Below, piece by piece: positions 27,608-42,848 of a stretch of 64,000 nt of DNA; the stretch's first letter is position 1; each line of letters starts with the position of its first letter. The DNA lies in the NCBI GenBank assembly GCA_003194525.1, contig NBIV01000046.1, positions 248,001-312,000 of the forward strand, given 5' to 3'. The DNA is from Gracilariopsis chorda. Its lineage: Eukaryota; Rhodophyta; Florideophyceae; Gracilariales; Gracilariaceae. A program made the position numbers and the translations under genes. Under the pieces are notes generated by a model that was not told where the DNA came from, ran no database searches, and worked only from the letters and a program-made list of their open reading frames with translations.

Positions 27608-28411
27608 TTATGAAGCAGGAAGTCCTAGAAAGATGTCGCCAATATCCATTTCTTTCTTCGGAAAGGCAGCTAATGTGATGCGGCCTTTAAAGAAAACCTC
27701 GTCGTACATGAAACGGTTTCCTTGCGGATTGCGAAGGATGCGCACAGTGCGCTTATTGACATCTATTATCCAGTACTCTGGAATCCCGCTGGTGGCGTAC
27801 TTAGTCAGCTTGGTCGTGCTGTCAAAATCCAAAGAGGAGTTCGACACCTCGATCACCACAAAGATGTCTCTTGGTTCAGGATGGCCATAAATGCGTTGCT
27901 TAGAAAGAGTCATATCTGGCTCTGGTTCTGATTTACCGTCTGACAGAGAAATAGGAGTACCTGGCCCAATCTTTGCCACGTCGGAAAAGCTTTTTACCAG
28001 TAGAAGGGTGAGGTTTTTTACGACCTCAGAGTGACGGGGTGATTGAGGATGCATCTGAATGAAAAAGCCGTCGATCAGCTCGCCACGAGCATGGTCCAAA
28101 AATCCAGTCTCAATCAACTCATGGTATTCCTCAACCGTCAAGCCCCTAGGAATATGGCTTGCAGCAGCAGAGTGCAAACACATCACGCGGGGCATGATCG
28201 TGAATCGGCGAGTTGGGTGCTTCGAAACTAACAAGGGCGCACCGCCGCGAGATATACGAGATCGCCACAGAAGTTGTTCCGAGATGAAGCATGAACTTGA
28301 TGACAGCTGTTCCATTGCGGGAGTAAGGACGTTGCACCGAGCCAGATATGATTTGGCTGGGAACTGGTAAGCCTTTCCAACGAAGGATAGTGTGCGCAAC
28401 CTACCAGACAT
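27608..28411 (-). CDS. Uma2-family (DUF820) PD-(D/E)XK endonuclease-like protein
   Basis: Uma2 proteins are restriction-endonuclease-fold proteins that are abundant in cyanobacteria and of unknown role. The 267-residue product begins at a real ATG. Residues 1-88 are a Ser/Arg-rich, acid-poor extension that resembles an organelle transit peptide. The domain starts at GLTVEEYHELIETG (about 90) and shows the family hallmarks: EPEPDMTL with Asp166, FVVIEVSNSS with Glu188, Lys201 in the following helix, and the signature GIPEYWIIDV at 209-218. All PD-(D/E)XK positions are present, so it may be active. The frame is intact. Its upstream region is cut by the Mutator-like element 140 bases from the start codon. 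Confidence 0.85.
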   Translation of the reverse strand: MSGRLRTLSFVGKAYQFPAKSYLARCNVLTPAMEQLSSSSCFISEQLLWRSRISRGGAPLLVSKHPTRRFTIMPRVMCLHSAAASHIPRGLTVEEYHELIETGFLDHARGELIDGFFIQMHPQSPRHSEVVKNLTLLLVKSFSDVAKIGPGTPISLSDGKSEPEPDMTLSKQRIYGHPEPRDIFVVIEVSNSSLDFDSTTKLTKYATSGIPEYWIIDVNKRTVRILRNPQGNRFMYDEVFFKGRITLAAFPKKEMDIGDIFLGLPAS

Positions 28412-28550: not shown

Positions 28551-28559
28551 GAGCAGGAC
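28551..28559. repeat. left 9-bp target-site duplication (GAGCAGGAC)
   Basis: GAGCAGGAC directly precedes the left terminal repeat and is repeated exactly at 36208-36216 after the right one. Nine bases is the classic duplication length for Mutator-superfamily insertion. Confidence 0.95.
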
Positions 28560-28799
28560 GGGAAAGGGCTAAACTACACGACGTAGATAGTGTAGGCGAG
28601 TCAGCGCGCATTTGCACCAATAAAAAGAGAGAGTCAGCGGGCACGTGCCACGGCGAGCTGCACAAGTGCCCGTGCCACTTCAGATCTTACTGTAGCCAAT
28701 AATACGCCCCTATTTTGGATTTCAACCAGTAGATCCGCAGAGTCAGAGCATTCCCTCTATCCCTGCTCTCTCCGGCCGCCAAGTCAGCACAACGTAAAT
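28560..28799 (+). repeat. left terminal inverted repeat (240 bp)
   Basis: It starts GGGAAAGGGCTAAACTAC and ends ACAACGTAAAT. I found no mismatch when comparing it by eye with the reverse complement of 35968-36207. It is GC-rich internally (for example GGGCACGTGCCACGG) and probably holds the element's promoters and transposase binding sites. Confidence 0.95.
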
Positions 28800-28806
28800 A
28801 TCATAA

Positions 28807-29892
28807 TTGCCATTTGGCGCCATCTTTGTGCAAACGGGTGAGCGTAGCCGAGGAAGAAGAGTATTAGGGAATCGTGATCGTGCGGTGGGTATTATTGGCG
28901 TTGCAGAGGACACTACGGCCCAGGACCCAGTGGACAAGGCTGGGGATGACGCCCACCCAATTACCGAAGATGAGCCTCGAGAGCACAATTTGGATCTAGG
29001 GACCATCGACACTGTTGCGGAGGAAGCCGTGGTGATCGCAACGCAGGTGGATGATGGCGGCAGTACAGAGAATCCAGTGGAAACTGAGCTCCACAAACTC
29101 GAAAAGGCCGAAGGAGAAGACGACGAGATCTCTGCGACTGGCCAATAGCGCGTAGTTGAAACAGAAGCGACTGCTTTCGATGTCGAGGGCGAAGCTAAAG
29201 GGCAAGATGCTGGAATGCCTACCGAAGATGTGGACACATCGCAAGAGCAGGAACAAGAATCAATTCCCAGACTCGTAGTTGATGTAGATGCGGCTGTTGT
29301 TGAGGGAGGAGGTGCTGAGGAGGGTGCAGACGAGGAGTACATTGAAGAAGTTGATGCCAAAAGGGAAGAGTATGGTGGCGACGAGGACTTTGAAGCAGAG
29401 CCACCTGTAATGGCTTTTGTTACTCTCAATGTCGTAGGAGAGGATGATGATGAGTACGACGAAGCTGATGAGGACGATGAGGGCCTGAGCGGTCAAGCGC
29501 CTGTTGAGTTCGATGTTCGGGACGAAGTGGAGGAGCTTCACTTAACTGCGGAAGGGAGACCCGCAGACCTTGATGCTCATTCTGATATTGAAGAAGACTA
29601 TGAAGATGTTGTCGATCCGGATAAGGTATACGGTCAAGCAGTCGTTGAGGAATTAGGTGACATTCAACAGGTCGACTCAGAGCAGTCTCCCATTGTGGTC
29701 GCAGAAGGTATGCTCACAGAAAACGTGCGTGTGGACCGTGCAACGACTGAAGCTATAACAAGAGATTCGAGTTGTGTAACTGGGATTGACGAGTCCGACG
29801 TGAACCAGCATGGACCTGAAGTACTGTTGGGGACAGTTGAAGTTAAGTCGGAAGAAACTGCATCTCCGATTGCTGTTCATGAGTTCAGGTGA
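28807..29892 (+). pseudogene. acidic protein frame of the Mutator-like element, one in-frame TAG
   Basis: One frame of about 360 codons runs from just inside the left repeat to a TGA at 29890-29892. It is interrupted only by TAG at 29146-29148, and the coding style is identical on both sides. The product is very acidic: about a third Asp and Glu, with runs around 29300-29500. Near its end is VEVKSEE, which fits a psi-K-x-E SUMO acceptor consensus. No ATG lies at the start (a TAA precedes a TTG), so an upstream exon or an alternative start is needed. Coding-like fragments in shifted frames at 29930-30180 may be 3' exons. Function is unknown; acidic partner proteins often bind the transposase or chromatin. 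Confidence 0.5.
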
Positions 29893-30180
29893 TACTATTG
29901 GTTAGTCTTTTCAAAGATACGTTGGCTCTTCAGTGATCGAGGTGCATGGAACAATTCCAACTGGGCTTCCATTTCGGGGTTCTCAGATGCAAGAAAGACT
30001 GTTCACGCGTTCTTGGACGAGGTTTTAGAATACGCGACGATATCTAGAAGTTTAATAAAGAATTAAAGTGAAGCAGAAGGCGAAAGAAGCAAGACCTCAA
30101 GGCTTTTATGAAGAGCAGAAAGAGCTCAAAGAAATTATGGAAGAAGGAAAGGGATCAAACGCCTGTGGTCAATGCTACAG

Positions 30181-33114
30181 CTAGTGGATGTGTCCGAGAG
30201 ACTTTGACATAATTCGAAGTGCTTTGTCTTGCACGTCTTGGGCTATGGAAGTTGAGGGTGTCACAGCTGGTTCTGAGGATGTTGAAGGTGGGTGACAGTC
30301 TTTCTGAGACACTTCCTGGGATGAATGTGGGCTTGTCCTCGCTCGCTTTCTCGTGCGCTCCAAGGAGCTTTTCTTTCTCCGTTGTGCTCTGTGGCGTCCA
30401 TTGTTTGGCGGACGGATCCCTGATGAACTGAAATCTTTTTTAGAAGACGATGGATGCAGTAAAGTGACAGTGTTCTCTGTTTCTTCCGCGTGTTCTGTTA
30501 ATGAAGCCAGCCTTGTTTTAAAGGTACCTCTAGCTTCGAAGTGTGTCGCTTTTCCTTGCTGAATGTCTGCGATGGCATCCCTTAAAAGACGTAGAACTCC
30601 ACTCACCGCAACACGTCCAATTCCAGTAGCTTGTCGATGTAAAGCATCGTAGAGGTTTTTTCCTTCCATGTACGTATTGTACCCATCTACTTCCGAGTCT
30701 TCTCTACTGGTTCTAAGTATATCTGAGTCAATGGGGATAAACTCTTTCTCCGTCGACTCATCAAAACGGCGTAGTCGGTAATCCATCTCCTCGTTGTTGA
30801 AGTATCGGGTCTCTGACCTGAGTTTCGCCAAGTATGGGACTGTCATAGCAGAAGTATCTTTTCTCCAGTATGTAGAGAAAAGCGCTTCAAGAGGTATGAA
30901 GTATCCTAGTATGTTTCGTAGTTCAGGGAAACGCAGACGTTCTTCCTGATAAACCACAGCACATCGAACCATGTGACGACAAGCAAAACCAACGGACCAG
31001 GGCTGCCCACAGGAACAGACACCAATAAACTCTGCCTTAACGTCATCCCCCGACCCCGTATACCTTTTTGAGAATTGCACAACAGTCTCCTGTGATGAGC
31101 GCTCTTCATCCACCGACGCATTCCGGTTCTGACTCAGATGGCTTCCCCATTTCAACTTAAAGCGAGCTACAGGTCCCATTGCTGGGGTTGAACTACTTTC
31201 CAGGTTTCTGATTGCTTCTGGCCACGCTTCCTGTGAATAATCCACAACCTCTGTGCTGGAAAGAATGTAGTTCTTCGAGGGCTTAAAGCTCAAATCTACG
31301 AAGTGCGCCAAGGCGTAGTTCGTGTACTCAGCCACCAGGCTGTCTACAACTTCTACAGGTAGAAAGTGCTCAAGCTCTCTTGTCTTCCGATATCTCCCAC
31401 TTTGAGAAGATAAGGTTCTTACAAGCTCCAAGTTCCGGGTATCAGCCCGTTCTTGGGATATACGCCGAACCTCCAAAGGAACCTTGCACAAGGGAATCTT
31501 CTTCGATATAATGATCTTCTTGTATGCAGAGTTAGAAGATTCGGTGTAGCCAGTTCCTTGGAACATGTAACGGGTAGGTATAGCCGCGTTTCGGAAGCAA
31601 GACACCAGCATATGCGGCTTATAGTGGTACAAGTACTTATACCACACAGGGAGACGATCGTCAAAAGCATCAAAGTACTTGCATTCTAGCATTCTTCTCC
31701 TTTCGAAAAACGTTTCCGACGTATATGACTTTCTGAGGTTGAACAGGTCTTTCTTCATATCGTGCATCCACTCCATCTTACCAATCTTTCTACACCAATT
31801 GGCCACATTCTTCTTCTGATTCTCGTTCAGATGCCATTCGTCGAGGCTTATATAGGACGAATTGAACACCTTCTCAGCTGCATTTATACACGCAGTGTTC
31901 TGGTCCATCACTACCATCGCCGGTGAGACGGCGACTATAGACTTGAAGTAGGACAGAATTCGTACGAAGTCCTCTTCTGTTTCGGAGCACATATACCCCA
32001 TGAAAAATGTCAACACATGACCATCATTGGCTCTTCCATTAATGGTGACCAGAGGGAAACCGTATCTATTGGCTATGGCTTTACAATCAATAGATACCCC
32101 CGGAACAATGCCGAACTTCTGGTAGTCTTCCATCCACTCTCGAAACGACCAACAAGCGTACTTCATCCTACCCGAATCATCCGCAGCGAAGAATCCCTTA
32201 TTCCCTGCATCCTCCTGGCTCAACGAAAAGAGCAGATCACACAACCTTACACATTCCAAATCGCGGGGATTGCTTGTGGAGGAAGCATACCTCAACTTCT
32301 TCCTCGCCGATACCGGATTAATCTTCTGATTGTACTTGTCTTCCAGGTATCGTATGGTATCTCTAAAGCTCATATGCAAATCGTTCGTCATATGTATCGC
32401 TTCAGAACGCATTTGCGGCTTGAGATGTCTAATACCAAAGCTCCCAGAGGGACCATGTCCATGTTTACAACCATTTAAATTAGCCACGTAGATCATTCCA
32501 CCATCTTCCTCCTGCCCAGAATCCTCCGTCTTAATCGTTATCGAGAAGAGGCATCGCGTCATCTTGTTATTGTATTGATCGCACTTCAAGATTCCCTTCT
32601 TCAGCACCCTTCTATTCCCACGTTCAGCACCACGACTCTTGGGAGACTTTGCCTTATCCGGAGATCGCTTTCGTTCTCCAAAGTATATAGAAGTCCTTAC
32701 GAATAAGCTGTACCCGAAGCAGTCCGCGATAAATTGAACTTCCTTCAGAACCGTGACACCAGGAGCATTGAGAGGAAGGGTTTCCAGATAGGCTAAGACT
32801 GCTGCTTTAAAACACTCCTCAATTCTCTCATTCGGTATCGTGTTCTGTACGGATTCCGTGCCCAGTTCTTCATCACCATCTTCTGTCCAGTACTTTTCGT
32901 CTTTCTCTCCAAGGACATCTTTCTCCTTTGGTTCTGATTCTTCTTCATTCAGGATGCCACCATCAGAGTCTTCGAAGAAGCATGAAGGAACCTCTTATTC
33001 GTCATCCAAGAATCGATCAATCAGCAGCGCCTCCTCTTCTTCAACGGATTGCTCATCTGAAACCTGCTGCGCATATGCAACGTTTGCGTTGAGAGTTTCA
33101 CTCTCCTCACTCAT
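30181..33114 (-). pseudogene. MULE transposase with SWIM zinc finger, one in-frame stop
   Basis: MULE transposases cut and join DNA through an RNase H-like DDE core. From an ATG at 33114 a single frame encodes 977 codons, interrupted only by TAA at 32995-32997 (codon 40); no other Met precedes the core. The N-terminal 150 residues are acidic, then basic (GERKRSPDKAKSPKSRG). The first catalytic Asp lies in GVSIDCKAIA (about residue 343). The second is in VVMDQNTACINAAEKVF (about 404), followed by DEWHLNENQ. A SWIM finger C-x-C-x(n)-C-x-H (GVCSCGQPW...ACRH) lies at about 700-715, and a Ser/Lys/Arg-rich tail ends the protein. The lone early stop may be a lesion, a read-through site or a hidden intron. 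Confidence 0.85.
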
Positions 33115-33122
33115 TTTTGAGC

Positions 33123-33557
33123 CTAATTCGGCGCCCACAGCGCTGTGGCGTGCACGCTCGCATTTTGCGTCCACTGTTTGTGTTGAGGAGTTCGGAGAAG
33201 CAGCAGGGGGTCAGCTTCAAAAGAGCTAATGCCAAAATCGCCTCTTACGCCACTCTCGACGTTAAACGCATTATCCAGAAGTCCATCCGAGCATTTTACA
33301 TCGTTTACGCCACCTTTCCCGATGCCTTCCCTTGAGATAGGTCCTTGCTGCGGCCTCTTCGGTAGATTGGAAAACGGCCTACCTCCTTCCTGTGAAACCG
33401 AGGAGTGTTGCTTCCAAAGCTCGGGTTTGGGTTCGTGAACTGCTCTTTGCGAAGCACGGCCATCAAAAACACCTCCCCTCTCAGGGCATTTCGTGCTATG
33501 CAACACGCAATAGAAGGGATAAAAGTCCTCAGCCCCACTGGAGTCGCCATACGCCAT
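33123..33557 (-). CDS. possible small protein frame between protease and transposase
   Basis: An ATG at 33557 opens 144 codons ending 8 bases before the transposase ATG. Its first part overlaps the last 10 codons of the protease gene. The composition is plausible but matches nothing. It could be an alternative 3' end of the protease gene reached by splicing or frameshifting, a small separate gene, or chance. Confidence 0.25.
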   Translation of the reverse strand: MAYGDSSGAEDFYPFYCVLHSTKCPERGGVFDGRASQRAVHEPKPELWKQHSSVSQEGGRPFSNLPKRPQQGPISREGIGKGGVNDVKCSDGLLDNAFNVESGVRGDFGISSFEADPLLLLRTPQHKQWTQNASVHATALWAPN

Positions 33558-35787
33558 ATCGTCTTCGCTTCCTGTTTCTGCATTGCTTTGAGATAAAGGA
33601 CCATGTGAATGCTCTAGGAGGTAGCATGATGAGCTGTTGTAGAACTCGGCTCCCTGGAAGGGGGGTATGGTTCGAAATATGCGTGTGTATCAGGTCCTGT
33701 TCAATTACCCAACATCTCTCCATGGGATAGAACTTTGCTCGAATGTTGGAGCGGCACTGCGACTTGTGCCGCAGACACCGCAATTTTCCGGTGAGCAGCG
33801 CAGACGACCTCGACTTCCTCGTCTGCAACACTGAGAAGTATTGTACACCATAAAGGTAGCCAAAGTTCTTAGCGATGTAGGCAACCAGTGCAGGGAGGTC
33901 AAAGACCTCCTTTAAACCTTTCAGAGCTGAGACAAGCCTCTCGTTTGACATCGCAAGTTCTGTCTTACATTCACCACCGTCCTCAAGTTTCACATCAACC
34001 CATAAACGCCTTCCATTGTTTTCAAATGTCTCTTGGACGTCTGCCTGATCCTCAGTGCATGACCCGGTCTTGGTAGTGCGTCCTTCACACATAGTCATTG
34101 ATGGTAGCTCCATGTGCGGCTTCTCCTGTATCTGAGCGTCAGAACAGGCTGCCAGCTCTTCATTGAGCTCTTGAGCTTGACCACCATTCTCAGAAGCCTG
34201 CTTCTTCTCTTCAATATGTTTTTCAGTTTCTGCGTTCAGCTCGGAAGGCGCCGCGGTATCCTTCGCTCCTTCTTCAGCTTCAACTTCTACCTGTGCCTGT
34301 GTCCGACTGATCGTCTTTGCTGGTGAATGTCCGTCAATTTCCATGTCTACTTCACTACCTTCTCCAGTCTGAATCATTTCCTGCTCCTCTTCTACACCTG
34401 ATGCTCCAATTACTTCAGAACTTCTTCCAGTTTTCTCACCTAGCGCTTTGTGCACCATCTCGGAGCGCTGTGATACACATATCTCAATCAATGTGTTCAC
34501 AATGTCCGCTACAACCGGAGCAGAATCAGAAAACTGCACTCGTCGCTTCATGCGAATCTTCAGGGGTAGACACATCCCACTGCTCTGAACAGAACTTTGG
34601 TTCAGCTCATGAACACGCTTTGTTCGCTGGCTTTTCCGTATAGCACGCGCCTCAGAGTCGCGCGTACCCAACGGCATTGGCTGAAGATCCACGACCTTTC
34701 CTTCTCCTGCTTTTCGTTCTCCCAGAACTGTATTCACATCCGTTCCCTCTTCCTTTCCAGCTTCTTCCTTTCCAGTCTGCATCCCAATGCTCCGCTCCAC
34801 GCTTCGTTTCGTACGCTGCCGTTTTTTTTTACCTTCCTTCCTCATGCGAAGGAGTTCTAAACGATGCTCTGACCGGAGCCGTACGACCATTGTTTCAGTA
34901 ACAATGTCGGTTTGAAAGAACTCCTTCGCCATGAGTATGTGTAGAATCCGGATTCTAATGGACATCCATCGAATCCTCTCAGTCAATGCTCGGCTGTACC
35001 CAGAGGCGTAGGTTCGCTTCGGGATACAGCCGTGGTCCGCACTGAACATGTTGAAAAGGGAAACAACATAGCAACCACAGCTGTGCGAGTCCTTTTGTCG
35101 CTTAAACCCTTTTACCTGTAGCATGTAGTTCCGCTCCGATATCACCGCACGTAGCGCTTCATCTCCTGTGAGGCAAAAGGGAAACAAGAAAGAGAACAGT
35201 TTCATAATCCTTCGATCAACAGACATTCCAAGACTGTCTCCAAACCAAACCGTCCATCGTTGCGTTCCTCGCGCCGCATTGACAATTTTCTTCCCTACCA
35301 AAACACCCCAATGGCTGTTAGACATGTTCAATGGGACTAGAACGGTGTTTATCTCTGTATCACCATTACCTTTAAAGGTAAACCACTTCTTGAACACTTC
35401 CAAATCCTCTTCCGGTATGTTTCCCTTCTTTCCCTTGAATGACTTCGATAGCCTTGTCAGCATCACTCCAATAGAACATGAGGCAAAAGCCACACCAACA
35501 GAAGGTACCATGTTCAAAACAGCTGTTGAGATCAAATCGCTACACATTTCCGAGTCAGGTTTTGAACTGTGTACCAAAGAAACCGGTGATGTTTCTTTGC
35601 CTTCTGCGATCAAGATTCTGGCTACATGGTCCTTCACAACCGCAAAAAGGACTTCGGAACTCGCAGAGCCATCACTGATGCGCATTTGCGTACGCTTTTC
35701 AAGATTCTCCCAGAACGACGTAAAGGTTTCATAAAGTTCATGTTCTGGGAGAATATCTACGTAGTCAGACGCTTTGTTTTGCTCCAT
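33529..35787 (-). CDS. ULP1-like cysteine protease (peptidase C48) of the Mutator-like element
   Basis: ULP1/SENP proteases process SUMO or related modifiers. The 752-residue product starts at a true ATG (35787). The C48 catalytic set is complete in the N-terminal third: His159 in NMSNSHWGVLV, Asp184 in VWFGDSLGM, Gln231 in GFKRQKD and Cys237 in SHSCGCYVV. After about residue 300 come Lys/Arg-rich and then long acidic, Glu/Gln-rich low-complexity segments to about 600, and then a small basic domain to the C-terminus. The catalytic domain is therefore N-terminal, unlike host ULP1 and SENP enzymes, where it is C-terminal. It shares strand with the transposase and lies 415 bases upstream of its start. 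The reading frame is intact. Confidence 0.85.
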   Translation of the reverse strand: MEQNKASDYVDILPEHELYETFTSFWENLEKRTQMRISDGSASSEVLFAVVKDHVARILIAEGKETSPVSLVHSSKPDSEMCSDLISTAVLNMVPSVGVAFASCSIGVMLTRLSKSFKGKKGNIPEEDLEVFKKWFTFKGNGDTEINTVLVPLNMSNSHWGVLVGKKIVNAARGTQRWTVWFGDSLGMSVDRRIMKLFSFLFPFCLTGDEALRAVISERNYMLQVKGFKRQKDSHSCGCYVVSLFNMFSADHGCIPKRTYASGYSRALTERIRWMSIRIRILHILMAKEFFQTDIVTETMVVRLRSEHRLELLRMRKEGKKKRQRTKRSVERSIGMQTGKEEAGKEEGTDVNTVLGERKAGEGKVVDLQPMPLGTRDSEARAIRKSQRTKRVHELNQSSVQSSGMCLPLKIRMKRRVQFSDSAPVVADIVNTLIEICVSQRSEMVHKALGEKTGRSSEVIGASGVEEEQEMIQTGEGSEVDMEIDGHSPAKTISRTQAQVEVEAEEGAKDTAAPSELNAETEKHIEEKKQASENGGQAQELNEELAACSDAQIQEKPHMELPSMTMCEGRTTKTGSCTEDQADVQETFENNGRRLWVDVKLEDGGECKTELAMSNERLVSALKGLKEVFDLPALVAYIAKNFGYLYGVQYFSVLQTRKSRSSALLTGKLRCLRHKSQCRSNIRAKFYPMERCWVIEQDLIHTHISNHTPLPGSRVLQQLIMLPPRAFTWSFISKQCRNRKRRRYGVWRLQWG

Positions 35788-35967
35788 TGCTCAAAGCAAT
35801 AGAACAGTACACGAGAGCGGTCCGGGAAGGAGATTGGGACGTAGAGAGAGTCAGCAGTCTTTGAAAGGGTCGTCGAAGATGTGAAGGAGGACGTAGTACC
35901 TGACGTATCTGTCATTCCCACACAATTTGACGACGCCGCGCGGTAACCTCGACTGCATCTACATCTC

Positions 35968-36207
35968 ATTTACGTTGTGCTGACTTGGCGGCCGGAGAGA
36001 GCAGGGATAGAGGGAATGCTCTGACTCTGCGGATCTACTGGTTGAAATCCAAAATAGGGGCGTATTATTGGCTACAGTAAGATCTGAAGTGGCACGGGCA
36101 CTTGTGCAGCTCGCCGTGGCACGTGCCCGCTGACTCTCTCTTTTTATTGGTGCAAATGCGCGCTGACTCGCCTACACTATCTACGTCGTGTAGTTTAGCC
36201 CTTTCCC
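35968..36207 (-). repeat. right terminal inverted repeat (240 bp)
   Basis: It is the reverse complement of 28560-28799, the same length and without a difference that I could find. It ends GTAGTTTAGCCCTTTCCC, next to the duplicated target. Confidence 0.95.
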
Positions 36208-36216
36208 GAGCAGGAC
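36208..36216. repeat. right 9-bp target-site duplication (GAGCAGGAC)
   Basis: It is an exact copy of 28551-28559. The inferred empty site would join ATCACCTC to GTGACTTT around a single GAGCAGGAC. Confidence 0.95.
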
Positions 36217-36386: not shown

Positions 36387-36960
36387 AGGTTCCGAGAGAG
36401 TGGAGCTTCGTTGTCTGTCGAGGAAGGCGTTGTGACGCTGCAGGGCCTGTTCAAGCGAATCAGGGGACTCTGTGAATCCTGCGAAACGAAGTATGTTTCG
36501 GACTTGTGAGAAGGCTGGTTGTCTGTCGCCGAAGGCGCAGAGGCGCTGCGAAGACTTGTTTATACCCTGTGAGGGTGTTTCGATTCGTCGTCAGGGCACG
36601 GGACGAGCTGCGATGAATTTAGTGTAACTGAGGCTCCGAGAGAGGGAGCTCTGTTGTCTTCCGAGGAAGGCGTTGTGGCGCTGCAGAGTCTGTTCATGTG
36701 AACTAGGGGCCGTGTGATGTCCTGCGGAGACAACTTTCAGCCTTGCGAGAAGGCTCGTATTGAAGTCTGGCTGAATGCGCAGAGGCGCGGCGAAGGCTTG
36801 CACGTTATTCTTTGGGGGTGTTTAAGTTCGTGGACAGGGCGCAGGAGGTGCTGTGATGGATTGAGTCTAGCAGAGGCTCCGAAGGAGGGAGCTATGTTCT
36901 CTACAGAAGAAAAATTTGCCCGTGCTTAAGGGTCTGTTCATGCGGAGACATGGTTCAAGT
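36387..36960 (+). repeat. 243-bp tandem repeat, about 2.3 units
   Basis: Units begin at about 36387, 36631 and 36873 with AGGYTCCGA-R-GGAG and share GAGGAAGGCGTTGTG, GCTGCAG, GTCTGTTCA, GAGAAGGCT and GGGTGTTT blocks. The spacing (244 and 242) averages 81 codons. In one plus frame each unit encodes EGxxLSxEEGVVxLQxLF-type text, and a weaker second motif (EGWLSVAEGAEAL) sits about halfway. This suggests a decayed repeat protein, with stops in every unit. Confidence 0.65.
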
Positions 36961-37886: not shown

Positions 37887-40800
37887 TCAAAGCATAGAAT
37901 CGCCACCCCCATCCAAATTCAGGACAATGCTGCGTTCATTGGCATCAGCACCACCAGCGGTTGTCGGTATGTCCGTGTCCATCGGGAAAATGTCATCAGC
38001 CGCGATCCTGGAACCTAGAAATGTGCTACTGAACGTTTGAGCCCGTTCCGAACCTCTATTGTACGGTTCGTCTACATTGATAACGTCTGGTTTAGACATA
38101 GTTTTAACTTCGATGATGTCATCCGGGTTGTCCTGAATCACAATAACCTCCTTTGATTTTGTGGATTCTTTTTTCTTACTCCCCCCTCCTGACTTCTTTT
38201 TCTTCTTCGTCTTGGTTGATGATGCGGAGGCCTTTGCTTCAGCTTTTTCCAGTTTCACCATCTCTTCAGCGGCTTTGATGTCATCTGATCGCCTCTGCAC
38301 TTGTTCCCGAGCAACTTCGAGTAGTAACTCCGCATGCTGCACTACCCATTGCACATCTGCACTCTTGTTGAATAAGCGAGCGTTGGATGTCATTAATTCC
38401 ATGTCCGTTAAAAACTGCGCAGATGTTTCATACGTCATCTTCTTACATTTCTGCCGTACCAAGTTCAGGTACATCGGGTTCTTGACGATTTGCGTGTACG
38501 TTGGGACGAGCTTCGCGTCTACAGGAGCCGTGAAATCCAACCCAGTGTCTTTGGGCACCGCGAGATTTGTAGCAGTCACCCCAGGTGGTGGAGATTCACC
38601 GTCTTGAAGACGAGCGATTTTAATGACCGACATATTTGGAACGATATACCCTTCGGTGCTGCGCACGATTTCCTCAATTTGTTCCAAGATTCCGTTCAGT
38701 TGCACCGTGCCGTTCCGTTTCCGACGAGAGGTTTTGGCCGTCTTCTTTGCGCGATAGTCGATTATGTCGTCCCCGTACTGTGATCTCTTGCGTTTCAAGG
38801 CTGCTTGTTCCTTTTGCTTGTTAATCTGCTTAGTGCTAATCTTGATCTTTCCAATCTGACCTTTCCGCTCTCCACTGATTTTCTGGATCGGTTTATCCAT
38901 AGGCGTTGGCGCAGTAGGGGGATTAGTCTTCTTCGAGCTCTTTTTCTTCTCGGGGGCGTTCGATTTCTTCTTTACACCTTTCGTACCACCTTGCAGGTCT
39001 CTCAGCCCAATAGCGATCTTAAGCTTTCCGTCCGATTTCCCACTGGGCCCTCCGCTCGCTACGCTCTCCTTCTTATTCTTCTTTGAAGCCCCTCGTTTCT
39101 CTAGGCGGCGCTTTATTTCTTCGGGATCTGTTACATATGTCACCACTGTTCTTTGTTTCCCGTCTGCCCCTGTTACTTTCTTTGTAACCTTGAGACGCGT
39201 GACTTTCTTTTTCAGTTTTCTCTGGGAGTCCTCCACAGACTCCGCAGTCTTTTTCGCCCCATTCCCAGGACCTGTTCCACCTTTTGAAGAGGATGCAACC
39301 GCTGGACTTGCGCTGCCTGTCACCGCGGAGCCGGTTTTCCTTTTCGGCGTATTTCCAGAACCATTTGACCTTCCTGACGGAGTGGGCGCCAATCTATCCT
39401 TAGAAAAGTCTCTCTTTGAACGTTCTCCAAACACTGCCCGGGCCGCAGCATAAACAGCAGGGCCATCTTTTTCTGGAAAGTAGTCGTCAGCCTCGGTTGG
39501 GAGTTCATCTACTTCTCCATCTTCCAGTGCTCTTCTCTGAACCTGGAGAGGGAGACTAAGCATGGTACCGCGTGACATCGCTGTTCCAACTGCAGCAATA
39601 GCGGCCCCCTTGGCCAACCCGGTATCTCTGTGCTTCTTCAAGACTGTTCGAATAACATTCGAGTAGTCTGACAGGTCTTGTACATTACTCTTTTGCTTTC
39701 GTTGGACCATTTCTCTAATTAATGCCCTCCGTTCCTCCAAGTTACTAGGAATCTTCTTCTGATTGAGTCTGTAATGGTTCATCAATACGCTGTTCAATTC
39801 TGCGGCAGAAAGGGTCATGAGCCGTGACTCCATTGAAGTACCTCCTTCTTTAAGGTCATTGACAATCCTGGCTAGCGACAATACCTGGAGAAGGTCTTTC
39901 CGTTGCATACGCTGTGCTGCGATAAGGTTCTGTGACTGGTACCAAGGCGATTTCAGTAAGTGACACTTCAAGAAAGTTGCTACAGCTTGTCCAGCTTCAT
40001 GTCCAGTCTTTTCTGAAGCAGCGAGGATATTGCCTTGTCCACTTGGAAACGTGAATGTTTGAACACCTATGTCCAAAAGGTGTTCCCATCCGGATTCCAT
40101 AGCTTCATAGGCTGTAGTTTCTTGTGGGGTTAATGTTCGAAGTAACTCAGCCTCTTTTGCTTCTCTAAAAGCTGTGTTCTTAGTGAAGTCCTCTGAAATG
40201 ACATACTTGCCGTTTTGATTCTTCGACATTTCTCGCAACAGCTTGATCAGAGAAGTCTCGGGATACGTCCTTCGACGAGGGAACGCTCTGAAGATTTGCT
40301 CCTTCTCAATAAAGGGTTGCGGCTCCTCCCGAGGGGCACTGTGATCCTCTTTTTGTTGCTTCTTTTGCTGCTTCAAAAATTCCTTTCGTTGTCTTGCAGC
40401 TTCGCGCATCACCCACAACGAAACACGATCCTTGGCAAATTTTTTGTACCGCTCGGTGTTCGGGGCCATAACTTCAATCTTAGGTTCGGTCATACCGACC
40501 GACACTACTGAGTCAATCTCGCGCACAAACATTTCATTATCGTTGCGAACCAACAGAAAGTCAGTAGTTGGCGTTGTCGTCTTGGCACATGGAGCAGAGT
40601 ACACATGAGACTCAATGACAGAAAGGTGCTTTCCGTCAGAGTCGATATCGCCGGCATTCACGGGTGGCGGTTCATCTGGTGCCAAGAAGACCGTATCTGC
40701 TTCTGCTGTACCGGCAGCATTCTTTGATGCTTGCGCCGCTTCAGCTGCTGAATCCTTTCTCGCAAAAGTTACAACTCGGGACGCCATGCCAGGTATGGGA

Positions 40801-42848
40801 AGCACCGAAGGCTGTCGTTCAAGTGCGTACTCAAATAGCGATACTCTGTAGGCATCCTTGACTGAGCATTGCAGCTCCGATAACTTCTTCGGAATCTGTC
40901 CTGCAATTTGTGCTTTGCCACCCTTTGGCCTCTTTCGCCGAAACGGTTGGAGCACCGCTTTCTTGGGTAAGTTATCAGCAGACAGCTTTGGTCTTCTGAA
41001 GGACAAAAGCGAAGCAGTGGTCGCAGAATGATGCGTTGTCTGACACTTAACAGCTGGTGGAGCATTCTGGAGCCCCCGAAGAATCGATCTTCGGTCAATT
41101 CTTTGATGCGTTGAAGACCCACTCGCGTAGTACAAGTCATTAGATATATTGAAACGATCAGATTCCAACAGTTGTTGAAGCTTTGTTCCAGTAGTTTGCA
41201 ACAGGTCCCGGCTTTGACCGTGCACGTTCAAAACGTTTTTCCCGGTTAGCATTCCACTCTTCTCTTCTGTTGAGTTTTCGGACACCTGCTCAAACATCAT
41301 GTTCTCGTCGTTAAGATCTAAAATCAGTCTCGACAGTTTCTCGCGGTCACTAATGATGCTTCGATTGCCTGAACTAGTTGAAGAATCATCTGGTTCCGTT
41401 TCGCTTTGCGAGTCCCAAGCAATGCCGCGAACCCAGGTGCCATCTCGAAGATCTGGATTTTGAGGGGGTATGGATTCTAGGATTGATTGGGGCGGAATTG
41501 CCAAGCCAGCTTTCGCCGTGCTATCGGTGTGCGTGGCATTCTGGGTTCCGTTTTCACTTGGGTCGGACTGGGCAGATGGGTTCTTCTTGTCTTCCTGAGA
41601 GCCATGAGACGAACTCTCTTTTGTATTCGACACCTGGGTTGCAGGAACATCAATGTCCATTTTGTCAGGACCCTTGAGTGTGTCACCCTTAACGGTGTTG
41701 GCATTATTCGCGGTTACGCCACCATCCTCCCACTCAATATCATCATCCGAGTCAGCACCAGCTTGGTTGTGATGCTTGTCAACGTTAAGCTGTACAGGAT
41801 CTTCAAACTCGTCATCGTCATCGTCACTATCCATTATGCGCACATGCGGTTTCTCACAGGACTGTCCTATAGCCCAATCATCCTCATCATCTTCATTAGT
41901 TTCTCCCCATGCGATATCACCTTCCCAATCCATCTGCTGCACCAAAGCATGCGTCTCAACAACAGGTTGAACGTGGCCGTTCTCCTCCAACGGCAGTGCG
42001 GCGTCATAATATTCTTCGGTAAACACGGGTAGTTGTTGAGTGTGCTGCTTCTTTCCTTCTCTCTGTTGAGCGTTTTTCTGGTCCAGAACCAGGACCACGC
42101 TGACGGGGTCAACCTCCGGTAAGGCCGGTGCGCTCTGCAATCTGTCAGCGGCATCCGGGGCGAGTTGGATGGGCTGTGGCTCGCGCACAATGCCGTACCG
42201 TTTCTGGGCGGCGACAAAACGTAGAGGAGGTGGCGGTTTGAAGAACAGCTTTGTAAATGGCAACGGGTCTTCTTCTTCTTCATCTGCAGCAGTTACAAGG
42301 TGTATGATAGGTTTCTTGACCGCCTCGCGCGCCGCCCTCATGAGACGACGTTGTTGTTCAAGAGCGGTAAGCGTTCGAGGGCTTTGATGCGGCTTCACAG
42401 GTGAGGCTGGGTGCGAAGATGGAGTGGAGTGAGGCTTCGGTGCTGAAGCGGATGGAGCGGGCTGTTCGGGCTGTGGGCCGTCGTCGTCGCCATCTTCATC
42501 ATCGTAATTTTCATCCTCGTCTACGATAACGGGTTTGGGGCGGGAAGAAATGGCGTGCATATCCTGACGAGTGGCCTCGTCGAGGTCATCAGGGTCATCA
42601 ATATCGTAGTAGTCTGATTTCTTGGGGTCGTCATCGTAGTGGTCATCGTCGTCGGAAACGGTGTCCCTCTTGAGGGGGAGCGATTCAATTTCGCGCAGCT
42701 GCTTGTCTTTAGTTTCTATTTTGGCGCCGACGTGGTCAATATTGTTCTTAGTCTCGTCGTCGAGGTAATCCTCGTCAAGACGGCCTCGTCGATCAATATT
42801 ACCGAACAGGAAGCCCGTTCCGCCGGTTGCTCCTTCGCGCGCGGACAT
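37887..42848 (-). CDS. TAF1: TFIID subunit 1 (TAF1) with a single bromodomain
   Basis: TAF1 is the scaffold of TFIID, binding TBP, promoter DNA and acetylated histones. The start is the first ATG (42848), immediately before the TAND-like motif FLFGNIDRRGRLDEDYLDDE (residues about 13-32). The product is 1,653 residues with no introns. Acidic stretches occupy about 50-450. The DUF3591 core, which forms the TAF7/promoter-binding module, spans about 600-1120 (including LSFRRPKLSADNLPKKAVLQPF and LSAAELNSVLM). A Lys/Gly-rich linker leads to one bromodomain at about 1395-1515 with PTYTQIVKNPMYL and the acetyl-lysine Asn in SNARLFN (about 1490). A Lys-rich tail follows. I did not find the zinc knuckle of animal TAF1. 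Animals have two bromodomains; one is usual in plants and algae. Confidence 0.9.
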   Translation of the reverse strand: MSAREGATGGTGFLFGNIDRRGRLDEDYLDDETKNNIDHVGAKIETKDKQLREIESLPLKRDTVSDDDDHYDDDPKKSDYYDIDDPDDLDEATRQDMHAISSRPKPVIVDEDENYDDEDGDDDGPQPEQPAPSASAPKPHSTPSSHPASPVKPHQSPRTLTALEQQRRLMRAAREAVKKPIIHLVTAADEEEEDPLPFTKLFFKPPPPLRFVAAQKRYGIVREPQPIQLAPDAADRLQSAPALPEVDPVSVVLVLDQKNAQQREGKKQHTQQLPVFTEEYYDAALPLEENGHVQPVVETHALVQQMDWEGDIAWGETNEDDEDDWAIGQSCEKPHVRIMDSDDDDDEFEDPVQLNVDKHHNQAGADSDDDIEWEDGGVTANNANTVKGDTLKGPDKMDIDVPATQVSNTKESSSHGSQEDKKNPSAQSDPSENGTQNATHTDSTAKAGLAIPPQSILESIPPQNPDLRDGTWVRGIAWDSQSETEPDDSSTSSGNRSIISDREKLSRLILDLNDENMMFEQVSENSTEEKSGMLTGKNVLNVHGQSRDLLQTTGTKLQQLLESDRFNISNDLYYASGSSTHQRIDRRSILRGLQNAPPAVKCQTTHHSATTASLLSFRRPKLSADNLPKKAVLQPFRRKRPKGGKAQIAGQIPKKLSELQCSVKDAYRVSLFEYALERQPSVLPIPGMASRVVTFARKDSAAEAAQASKNAAGTAEADTVFLAPDEPPPVNAGDIDSDGKHLSVIESHVYSAPCAKTTTPTTDFLLVRNDNEMFVREIDSVVSVGMTEPKIEVMAPNTERYKKFAKDRVSLWVMREAARQRKEFLKQQKKQQKEDHSAPREEPQPFIEKEQIFRAFPRRRTYPETSLIKLLREMSKNQNGKYVISEDFTKNTAFREAKEAELLRTLTPQETTAYEAMESGWEHLLDIGVQTFTFPSGQGNILAASEKTGHEAGQAVATFLKCHLLKSPWYQSQNLIAAQRMQRKDLLQVLSLARIVNDLKEGGTSMESRLMTLSAAELNSVLMNHYRLNQKKIPSNLEERRALIREMVQRKQKSNVQDLSDYSNVIRTVLKKHRDTGLAKGAAIAAVGTAMSRGTMLSLPLQVQRRALEDGEVDELPTEADDYFPEKDGPAVYAAARAVFGERSKRDFSKDRLAPTPSGRSNGSGNTPKRKTGSAVTGSASPAVASSSKGGTGPGNGAKKTAESVEDSQRKLKKKVTRLKVTKKVTGADGKQRTVVTYVTDPEEIKRRLEKRGASKKNKKESVASGGPSGKSDGKLKIAIGLRDLQGGTKGVKKKSNAPEKKKSSKKTNPPTAPTPMDKPIQKISGERKGQIGKIKISTKQINKQKEQAALKRKRSQYGDDIIDYRAKKTAKTSRRKRNGTVQLNGILEQIEEIVRSTEGYIVPNMSVIKIARLQDGESPPPGVTATNLAVPKDTGLDFTAPVDAKLVPTYTQIVKNPMYLNLVRQKCKKMTYETSAQFLTDMELMTSNARLFNKSADVQWVVQHAELLLEVAREQVQRRSDDIKAAEEMVKLEKAEAKASASSTKTKKKKKSGGGSKKKESTKSKEVIVIQDNPDDIIEVKTMSKPDVINVDEPYNRGSERAQTFSSTFLGSRIAADDIFPMDTDIPTTAGGADANERSIVLNLDGGGDSML

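Follow-up and report, generated by a model that had tools for sequence, protein, structure and literature searches.

A C48/ULP1 protease domain joined to the transposase in a terminal-inverted-repeat Mutator-like transposon family of the red alga Gracilariopsis chorda

Does a protease domain found inside a transposon belong to the transposon? The question is raised by a Mutator-like element (MULE) of Gracilariopsis chorda that lies in a stretch of 64,000 nucleotides (contig NBIV01000046.1, positions 248,001 to 312,000; G000:C46:248001-312000, strand +). We call this whole stretch the window, and positions of the element are counted within it. A sequence-only reading had described the element as complete, with a transposase and an intact ULP1-like C48 protease as two genes. 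We find that the copy in the window is a defective copy of a Mutator-like transposon of the terminal inverted repeat (TIR) type, and that in open relatives the protease and the transposase are encoded as one protein. With a confidence only a little above even, we read the family as autonomous and recently active, its main gene being a C48-MULE fusion that would act as a transposase-tethered deconjugase of SUMO or another ubiquitin-like modifier (Ubl).

The ends of the element are exact. The left TIR (28560–28799, + strand) and the right TIR (35968–36207, − strand) are each 240 bp long. They are 100% complementary over these 240 bp, without a difference; the 241-bp arm given by the program takes in one chance base of the target-site duplication (TSD). 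The TSD is a perfect 9-bp repeat of GAGCAGGAC, present at the left (28551–28559) and at the right (36208–36216). Ends, repeats, and duplication are as the sequence-only reading had given them, and its assignment to a MULE with a ULP1/C48 protease holds as well: the Pfam matches to MULE (PF10551, 1.7e-8) and Peptidase_C48 (PF02902, 4.6e-5) are both above the curated cut-offs. The SWIM finger is readable by eye as CxC..CxH. Pfam makes no SWIM call for the window protein or for P0001, an intact protein of the same family (family I below), and calls it only in the relative L047 (22.6 bits).

The main gene lies on the − strand. Its protease part (33680–35787) encodes the C48/ULP1 domain (Pfam residues 107–251, with His, Asp, Gln, and Cys), a linker, and the first zinc finger. 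The remainder (30181–33682), which is broken in this copy, encodes the linker, a second zinc finger, the MULE DDE core, and the SWIM finger. The C48 domain is whole, as had been claimed, but it is not a separate gene and its frame is cut. The window copy lacks 137 bp near 33680 that are kept in all 14 of the fetched full-length two-ended relatives, and after this deletion the protease frame stops at 33529. The transposase half is interrupted by a nonsense codon near 32997 and has lost 1 bp near 33205. With these defects the copy is not intact.

In two relatives, L013 and L017, a single open frame of 1913 codons joins the protease and the transposase; the frame has breaks in the other 12 of the 14 full-length two-ended relatives. 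The existence of one open reading frame (ORF) in the open relatives rules out the earlier view of two genes. From the N to the C terminus, the 1913-aa protein consists of the C48/ULP1 domain (Pfam, 107–251), a zinc finger, a linker, a second zinc finger, the MULE DDE core (Pfam, 1284–1368), and the SWIM finger (1636–1650). The zinc fingers were seen by eye as C..C..H.H patterns at about 670–702 and 1114–1156; we take them to be FAR1/WRKY-like, and the DDE residues are likewise presumptive assignments. Across the genome, a C48 domain lies upstream on the same strand, at 2.2–3.7 kb, for 59 of 111 MULE-domain hits, in a count that used 119 of 130 C48 match rows; it is downstream in one case and on the opposite strand in two.

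The 240-bp repeat is multicopy. Used as a query against the genome, it gave at least 40 scored matches, the two of the window counted, among 160 candidates. We fetched 20 of the matching places and found both TIRs in 15 and one TIR in 5; the repeats are thus paired in other copies too. As the TIRs are symmetrical and the copies occur in both directions, copies were oriented by their interior before alignment. The TSD is a perfect 9-bp repeat in 11 of the 15 other two-ended copies, and these 11 all differ from one another. The imperfect ones have one mismatch (L019), two (L028), seven (L024), and eight (L026). Four copies (L009, L012, L013, and L014) are 99.15–99.88% identical to the window copy. 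As copies that are 99.7–99.9% identical to that of the window carry different TSDs, the family appears to have moved recently. Seven phycobilisome-linker matches in the genome agree with the sequence-only reading's guess of a red alga, in a test that is also compatible with glaucophytes; five of the seven are on contigs with pieces of such elements (C12, C144, C60, C427, and, as a fragment, C101).

Two of the fetched copies look composite. L018 (G000:C178:43401-48500) is a deletion derivative of 4.2 kb that retains both TIRs and has a perfect TSD; it resembles subfamily B (described below) on one side, at 76%, and has a subfamily A-type insert at the opposite end. Two elements may have recombined to produce it. 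Compared with L013, L026 (G000:C156) is a mosaic, its transposase half being mostly 98–99% identical and most of its protease half 72–93%, which suggests recombination between lineages.

How old is the fusion? A genome search with the C48 domain returned 130 match rows. Among them were long open frames, with identities of 44% and of 32–33%, and four families could be delimited. Family I is that of the window. Family II (L047 and L049) is 6184 bp long with a 345-bp TIR, a 10-bp TSD in two copies, and an ORF of 1714 aa. Family III (L048 and L050) is 7882 bp long with a TIR of about 374 bp and an ORF of 1683 aa; L050 was fetched in part, and the 9-bp TSD was read from one copy. Family IV (L051) is 5704 bp long with a 343-bp TIR, a 9-bp TSD (one copy), and a single ORF with an uncertain start. 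PF10551 is above the cut-off in families I, II, and III, and in the family IV copy on C190. The Pfam cut-off for C48, 20.7 bits, is exceeded in family I, and the proteins of families II and III score 18.3 and 20.3 bits. Between the four families the identity is 27–45% in the C48 domain and 38–58% in the transposase core. The linker is poorly conserved (16–32% identity). The His, Asp, and Gln of the C48 domain are kept in families I–IV, the Cys is kept in I–III and in the family IV copy C83, and the MULE motifs and SWIM are kept across families. Families I and II are nearest to each other in both the C48 domain and the transposase core, the result to be expected had both domains been inherited as one unit. 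Because four families share the same fusion with the catalytic set kept, we judge from these comparisons that the fusion arose before at least four families of this genome separated, and that its protease is not a host gene.

The ends of the families are related as well. In all four, the TIR tips have CTAC in common at position 15, and likewise GTA at 24–26 and 33–35. Of the first 40 columns 15 are identical, which none of 20000 shuffles equalled. These common bases are plausibly a binding site for a shared transposase.

The host genome has ULP genes of its own. Four strong C48 matches are of host type: L029, which is SENP1/2-like, L030 and L031, which cluster with it, and L032, which is ULP2-like. 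In an hhalign profile match of the element C48 with the host SENP/ULP proteins, the catalytic residues are aligned at 94% probability. In the tree (9 rows, midpoint root), a branch with 98/99 support parts the element proteases from the host proteases. As the two sets split in this way, the C48 of the elements appears not to have been taken recently from a present-day host gene. A host protease gene as chance neighbour is ruled out by this split together with the upstream same-strand pairing. The protease is thus not a host gene without a counterpart, since counterparts occur in related elements. A further frame of 890 codons with a C48-like domain, L045 (G000:C140:183904-187293), is placed with the host proteases by the tree, though not within the group of the four host ULPs, and is perhaps part of another mobile element. 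No relatives were confirmed in viral_contigs (searched with A1 and A2) or in genome_contigs (searched with A2).

Selection was estimated as the ratio of non-synonymous to synonymous change (pN/pS). With the intact pairs of families I, II, and III pooled, the whole fusion has a ratio of 0.36 (p 1.1e-6) and the transposase one of 0.19 (p 2.1e-7). By family pair, the whole fusion gives 0.26 in family I (p 6.6e-4) and 0.38 in family III (p 3e-4). The C48 domain was also compared with that of L013. Of 14 loci tried, 12 could be used, as L027 could not be aligned well enough and L020 gave no C48; the p values of the 12 are uncorrected. Five of the 12 show constraint: L033 (0.37, p 3e-4), L035 (0.43, p 0.01), L021 (0.12, p 0.009), L016 (0.24, p 0.03), and L026 (0.61, p 6e-4). 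Between families the C48 region is still 29–43% identical, with synonymous sites near or at saturation. We conclude that the C48 domain has been under long-term purifying selection, although the youngest copies show no constraint on it.

That four old branches have retained the fusion suggests that the protease may help the element to move or to evade silencing. If it acts as a deconjugase tethered to the transposase, the transposase would bring it to the TIRs and to insertion sites. There it would remove SUMO, or a modifier like it, and its substrate would be either the transposase or proteins of chromatin and repair. Removal of the modifier could then ease silencing or aid the cut-and-paste reaction.

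Several results weigh against the tethered deconjugase. The C48 is remote from every SUMO protease of solved structure: in a phmmer search of the Protein Data Bank (PDB), Ulp1 came at E 1 and was outranked by chance-like hits to protoglobin (best E 0.074), and a profile search of the PDB with the C48 gave no match. A single-sequence AlphaFold model of the window C48 alone has a predicted local distance difference test score (pLDDT) of 34.5, too low for the model to be of use. The C48 alone has a ratio of 0.90 in the pooled intact pairs of families I–III (three synonymous and nine non-synonymous changes, not significant), and the whole fusion has 0.61 in the family II pair (p 0.45). In the comparison with L013, seven of the 12 loci are without significant constraint on the C48 (L017, L012, L019, L015, L024, L025, and L028), the ratio reaching 2.39 in L012 and 2.09 in L024. 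L051 of family IV has Tyr at the catalytic Cys, although the C83 copy keeps the Cys. Lastly, for 52 of the 111 MULE hits no C48 partner was detected; C190 and C83, which are counted among these 52, do carry a C48 that is too diverged to be listed.

Could the protease instead act on its own chain? In a self-processing polyprotein, the C48 would cut within the linker and free the transposase. The adenoviral and poxviral relatives of C48 process viral proteins. The position of the protease, N-terminal to a long and poorly conserved linker, fits such a role, and families II and III have in common a Gly-Gly in an acidic stretch ahead of the transposase. Family I is without this Gly-Gly, however, the family IV protein has its three Gly-Gly elsewhere, and no cleavage site common to all families was seen. 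We consider self-processing unlikely, with perhaps one chance in several of being right.

Alternatively, the protease could be an anti-silencing factor that works in trans, like plant VANC/KIU, lifting host repression of all copies and being only incidentally joined to the transposase. The passages of PMC13317346 cited here report that VANDALs carrying KIU (a VANC gene with a Ulp1 domain) induce hypomethylation of related elements. However, the same review, in these passages, calls the function of Ulp1 unknown, and the main text of PMC10398659 is without any mention of SUMO, protease, or peptidase. We regard this role as improbable.

The sequence-only reading had drawn a parallel to the KI-MULEs of plants and had left the choice between an ancient architecture and an independent capture. 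The parallel holds in that both are MULEs with a ULP1 peptidase domain. It fails in the arrangement: as PMC2528002 and PMC13317346 describe in part, the Arabidopsis KI-MULE or KIU (Kaonashi) elements of the VANDALs are non-TIR, and their ULP is in another gene, reverse to mudrA, whereas here there are long TIRs, one same-strand ORF, and a C48 at its N terminus. As to the choice, the architecture is old within this genome, with four deep families, and its arrangement is unlike the described plant ones. Inheritance of a ULP-MULE from the common ancestor of red algae and plants would account for the same two domains in the MULEs of both groups, and the ULP-MULEs of melon, rice, and grapevine, as portrayed in passages of PMC2528002, may have or lack TIRs and may carry the ULP in either orientation, the direct one included. 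Against it, the ULP of the grapevine element is downstream of the transposase ORF, whereas here it is upstream in the same ORF, and that of the Arabidopsis KI is reversed. The plant ULP families are not monophyletic, which PMC2528002 reads, in the part cited, as several independent captures or losses, and the passages of PMC13317346 date the non-TIR capture to the monocot-eudicot split. We therefore hold shared ancestry to be quite improbable, and an acquisition independent of the plant ULP-MULEs seems the likelier history.

That the protease is a host ULP fragment caught by a MULE and carried without function is very improbable: MULEs do capture host fragments (an eIF4G MA3 piece in subfamily B, below), frequent ULP capture by plant MULEs is described in passages of PMC2528002, and recent C48 ratios are close to neutral, but the C48 is in the same position and frame in four families with its catalytic residues kept, deeper copies show constraint on it, and the host ULPs stand apart in the tree.

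Family I does carry cargo, near its left TIR. In the window this variable segment of about 1 kb spans approximately 28884–29873 (+ strand). It is unrelated between subfamilies A (window, L009, L012, L013, L014, L019, L026, and L028) and B (L010, L011, L015, L016, L017, L024, and L025), but the 84 bases next to the TIR and the far end match, and outside the segment L013 (A) and L017 (B) are 95–100% identical. Subfamily A has two ORFs in the window, 28807–29148 and 29215–29892, convergent to the main ORF; the second is acidic (225 aa) and open in eight of eight A copies. The subfamily B ORF (164 aa in L017) is open in five of the seven B copies (L010, L011, L015, L016, and L017); L024 has it in split form, and in L025 it was not found. 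Pfam gave no match for the A cargo ORFs or the 164-aa B ORF; the latter is identified as MA3 because it is 72% identical to this region in a host gene at C218 that is eIF4G-like (MIF4G 2.3e-32, MA3 2.7e-6) and likely the donor of the insert. Subfamily B, and only it, is thus judged to show host-gene capture, and the family to which it belongs includes copies that are intact and potentially autonomous. Four hits to the eIF4G-like gene lie at G000:C218:86798-115873, spaced by about 9.53 kb (L053 is 115001–117200); MIF4G and MA3 together were read in the last of the four only, and the repeats are either a tandem array or an assembly artefact. In maize MuDR, two convergent coding regions start from near opposite TIRs, and the TSD is 9 bp. 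The present element is alike in both respects, and differs in that its second region has no Pfam match and varies by subfamily.

The surroundings of the element hold other features. A Uma2-family gene (PF05685, 9.1e-27) at 27608–28411 is about 140 bp from the insertion. The Uma2 family is mostly bacterial, and horizontal transfer into this eukaryotic genome is possible. Just beyond the right end, at 36402–36800, are degenerate short direct repeats of 65 nt and 31 nt, in three copies each. Farther on, at 37887–42848, a 1653-aa ORF encodes a TAF1-like protein (DUF3591, bromodomain, TBP-binding).

What is new is the arrangement: a TIR MULE has its C48 at the N terminus and in the same ORF as the transposase, and four families retain this. 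The pairing of ULP1 with MULEs is itself known. Among described red-algal elements, there is a likeness to the MULE-Cc group 38 elements of Dupeyron et al. 2019 (PMC6446971, cited passages), with a 9-bp TSD, TIRs of 244 and 640 bp, one ORF, and SWIM; group 36 of the same paper has inserts that are potentially host-derived, and the terms ULP, C48, protease, and peptidase are absent from the main text of that paper. No C48-MULE fusion in red algae was found in the titles, abstract openings, and passages of cited papers. Bao et al. 2010 (PMC2836005, in part) aligned Ulp1 from hydra and lancelet Mutator transposases, and a fusion is therefore probably not unique to this genome; the lancelet MULEs were later doubted in a passage of PMC6446971. 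Ulp1 is also fused to a DDE transposase in Ginger1, but there it is C-terminal and the transposase is of the integrase type (PMC2836005, in part), whereas here it is N-terminal to a MULE DDE. CACTA-ULP, like the present element, has ULP1 in one protein with its transposase (Tnp2; PMC2528002, in part), and differs by superfamily. The Ulp1-type C48 peptidases of CryptonF and CryptonS (PMC3212892, in part) belong to tyrosine recombinase elements, unlike the MULE here, the likeness being a mobile element with a C48.

Plant MULEs, CACTA, Ginger1, and Cryptons are thus all DNA transposons in which ULP1-like domains occur, although they are unrelated. The present family offers a protease and a transposase in one chain, in near-identical and some intact copies, with four diverged families as natural replicates. 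We propose, tentatively and with less than even confidence, that a SUMO/Ubl protease may be a built-in and needed part of the transposase in a lineage of red-algal TIR MULEs, gained independently of the plant ULP-MULEs. If this is true, the pairing of protease and transposase would be a convergent solution that DNA transposons have reached several times.

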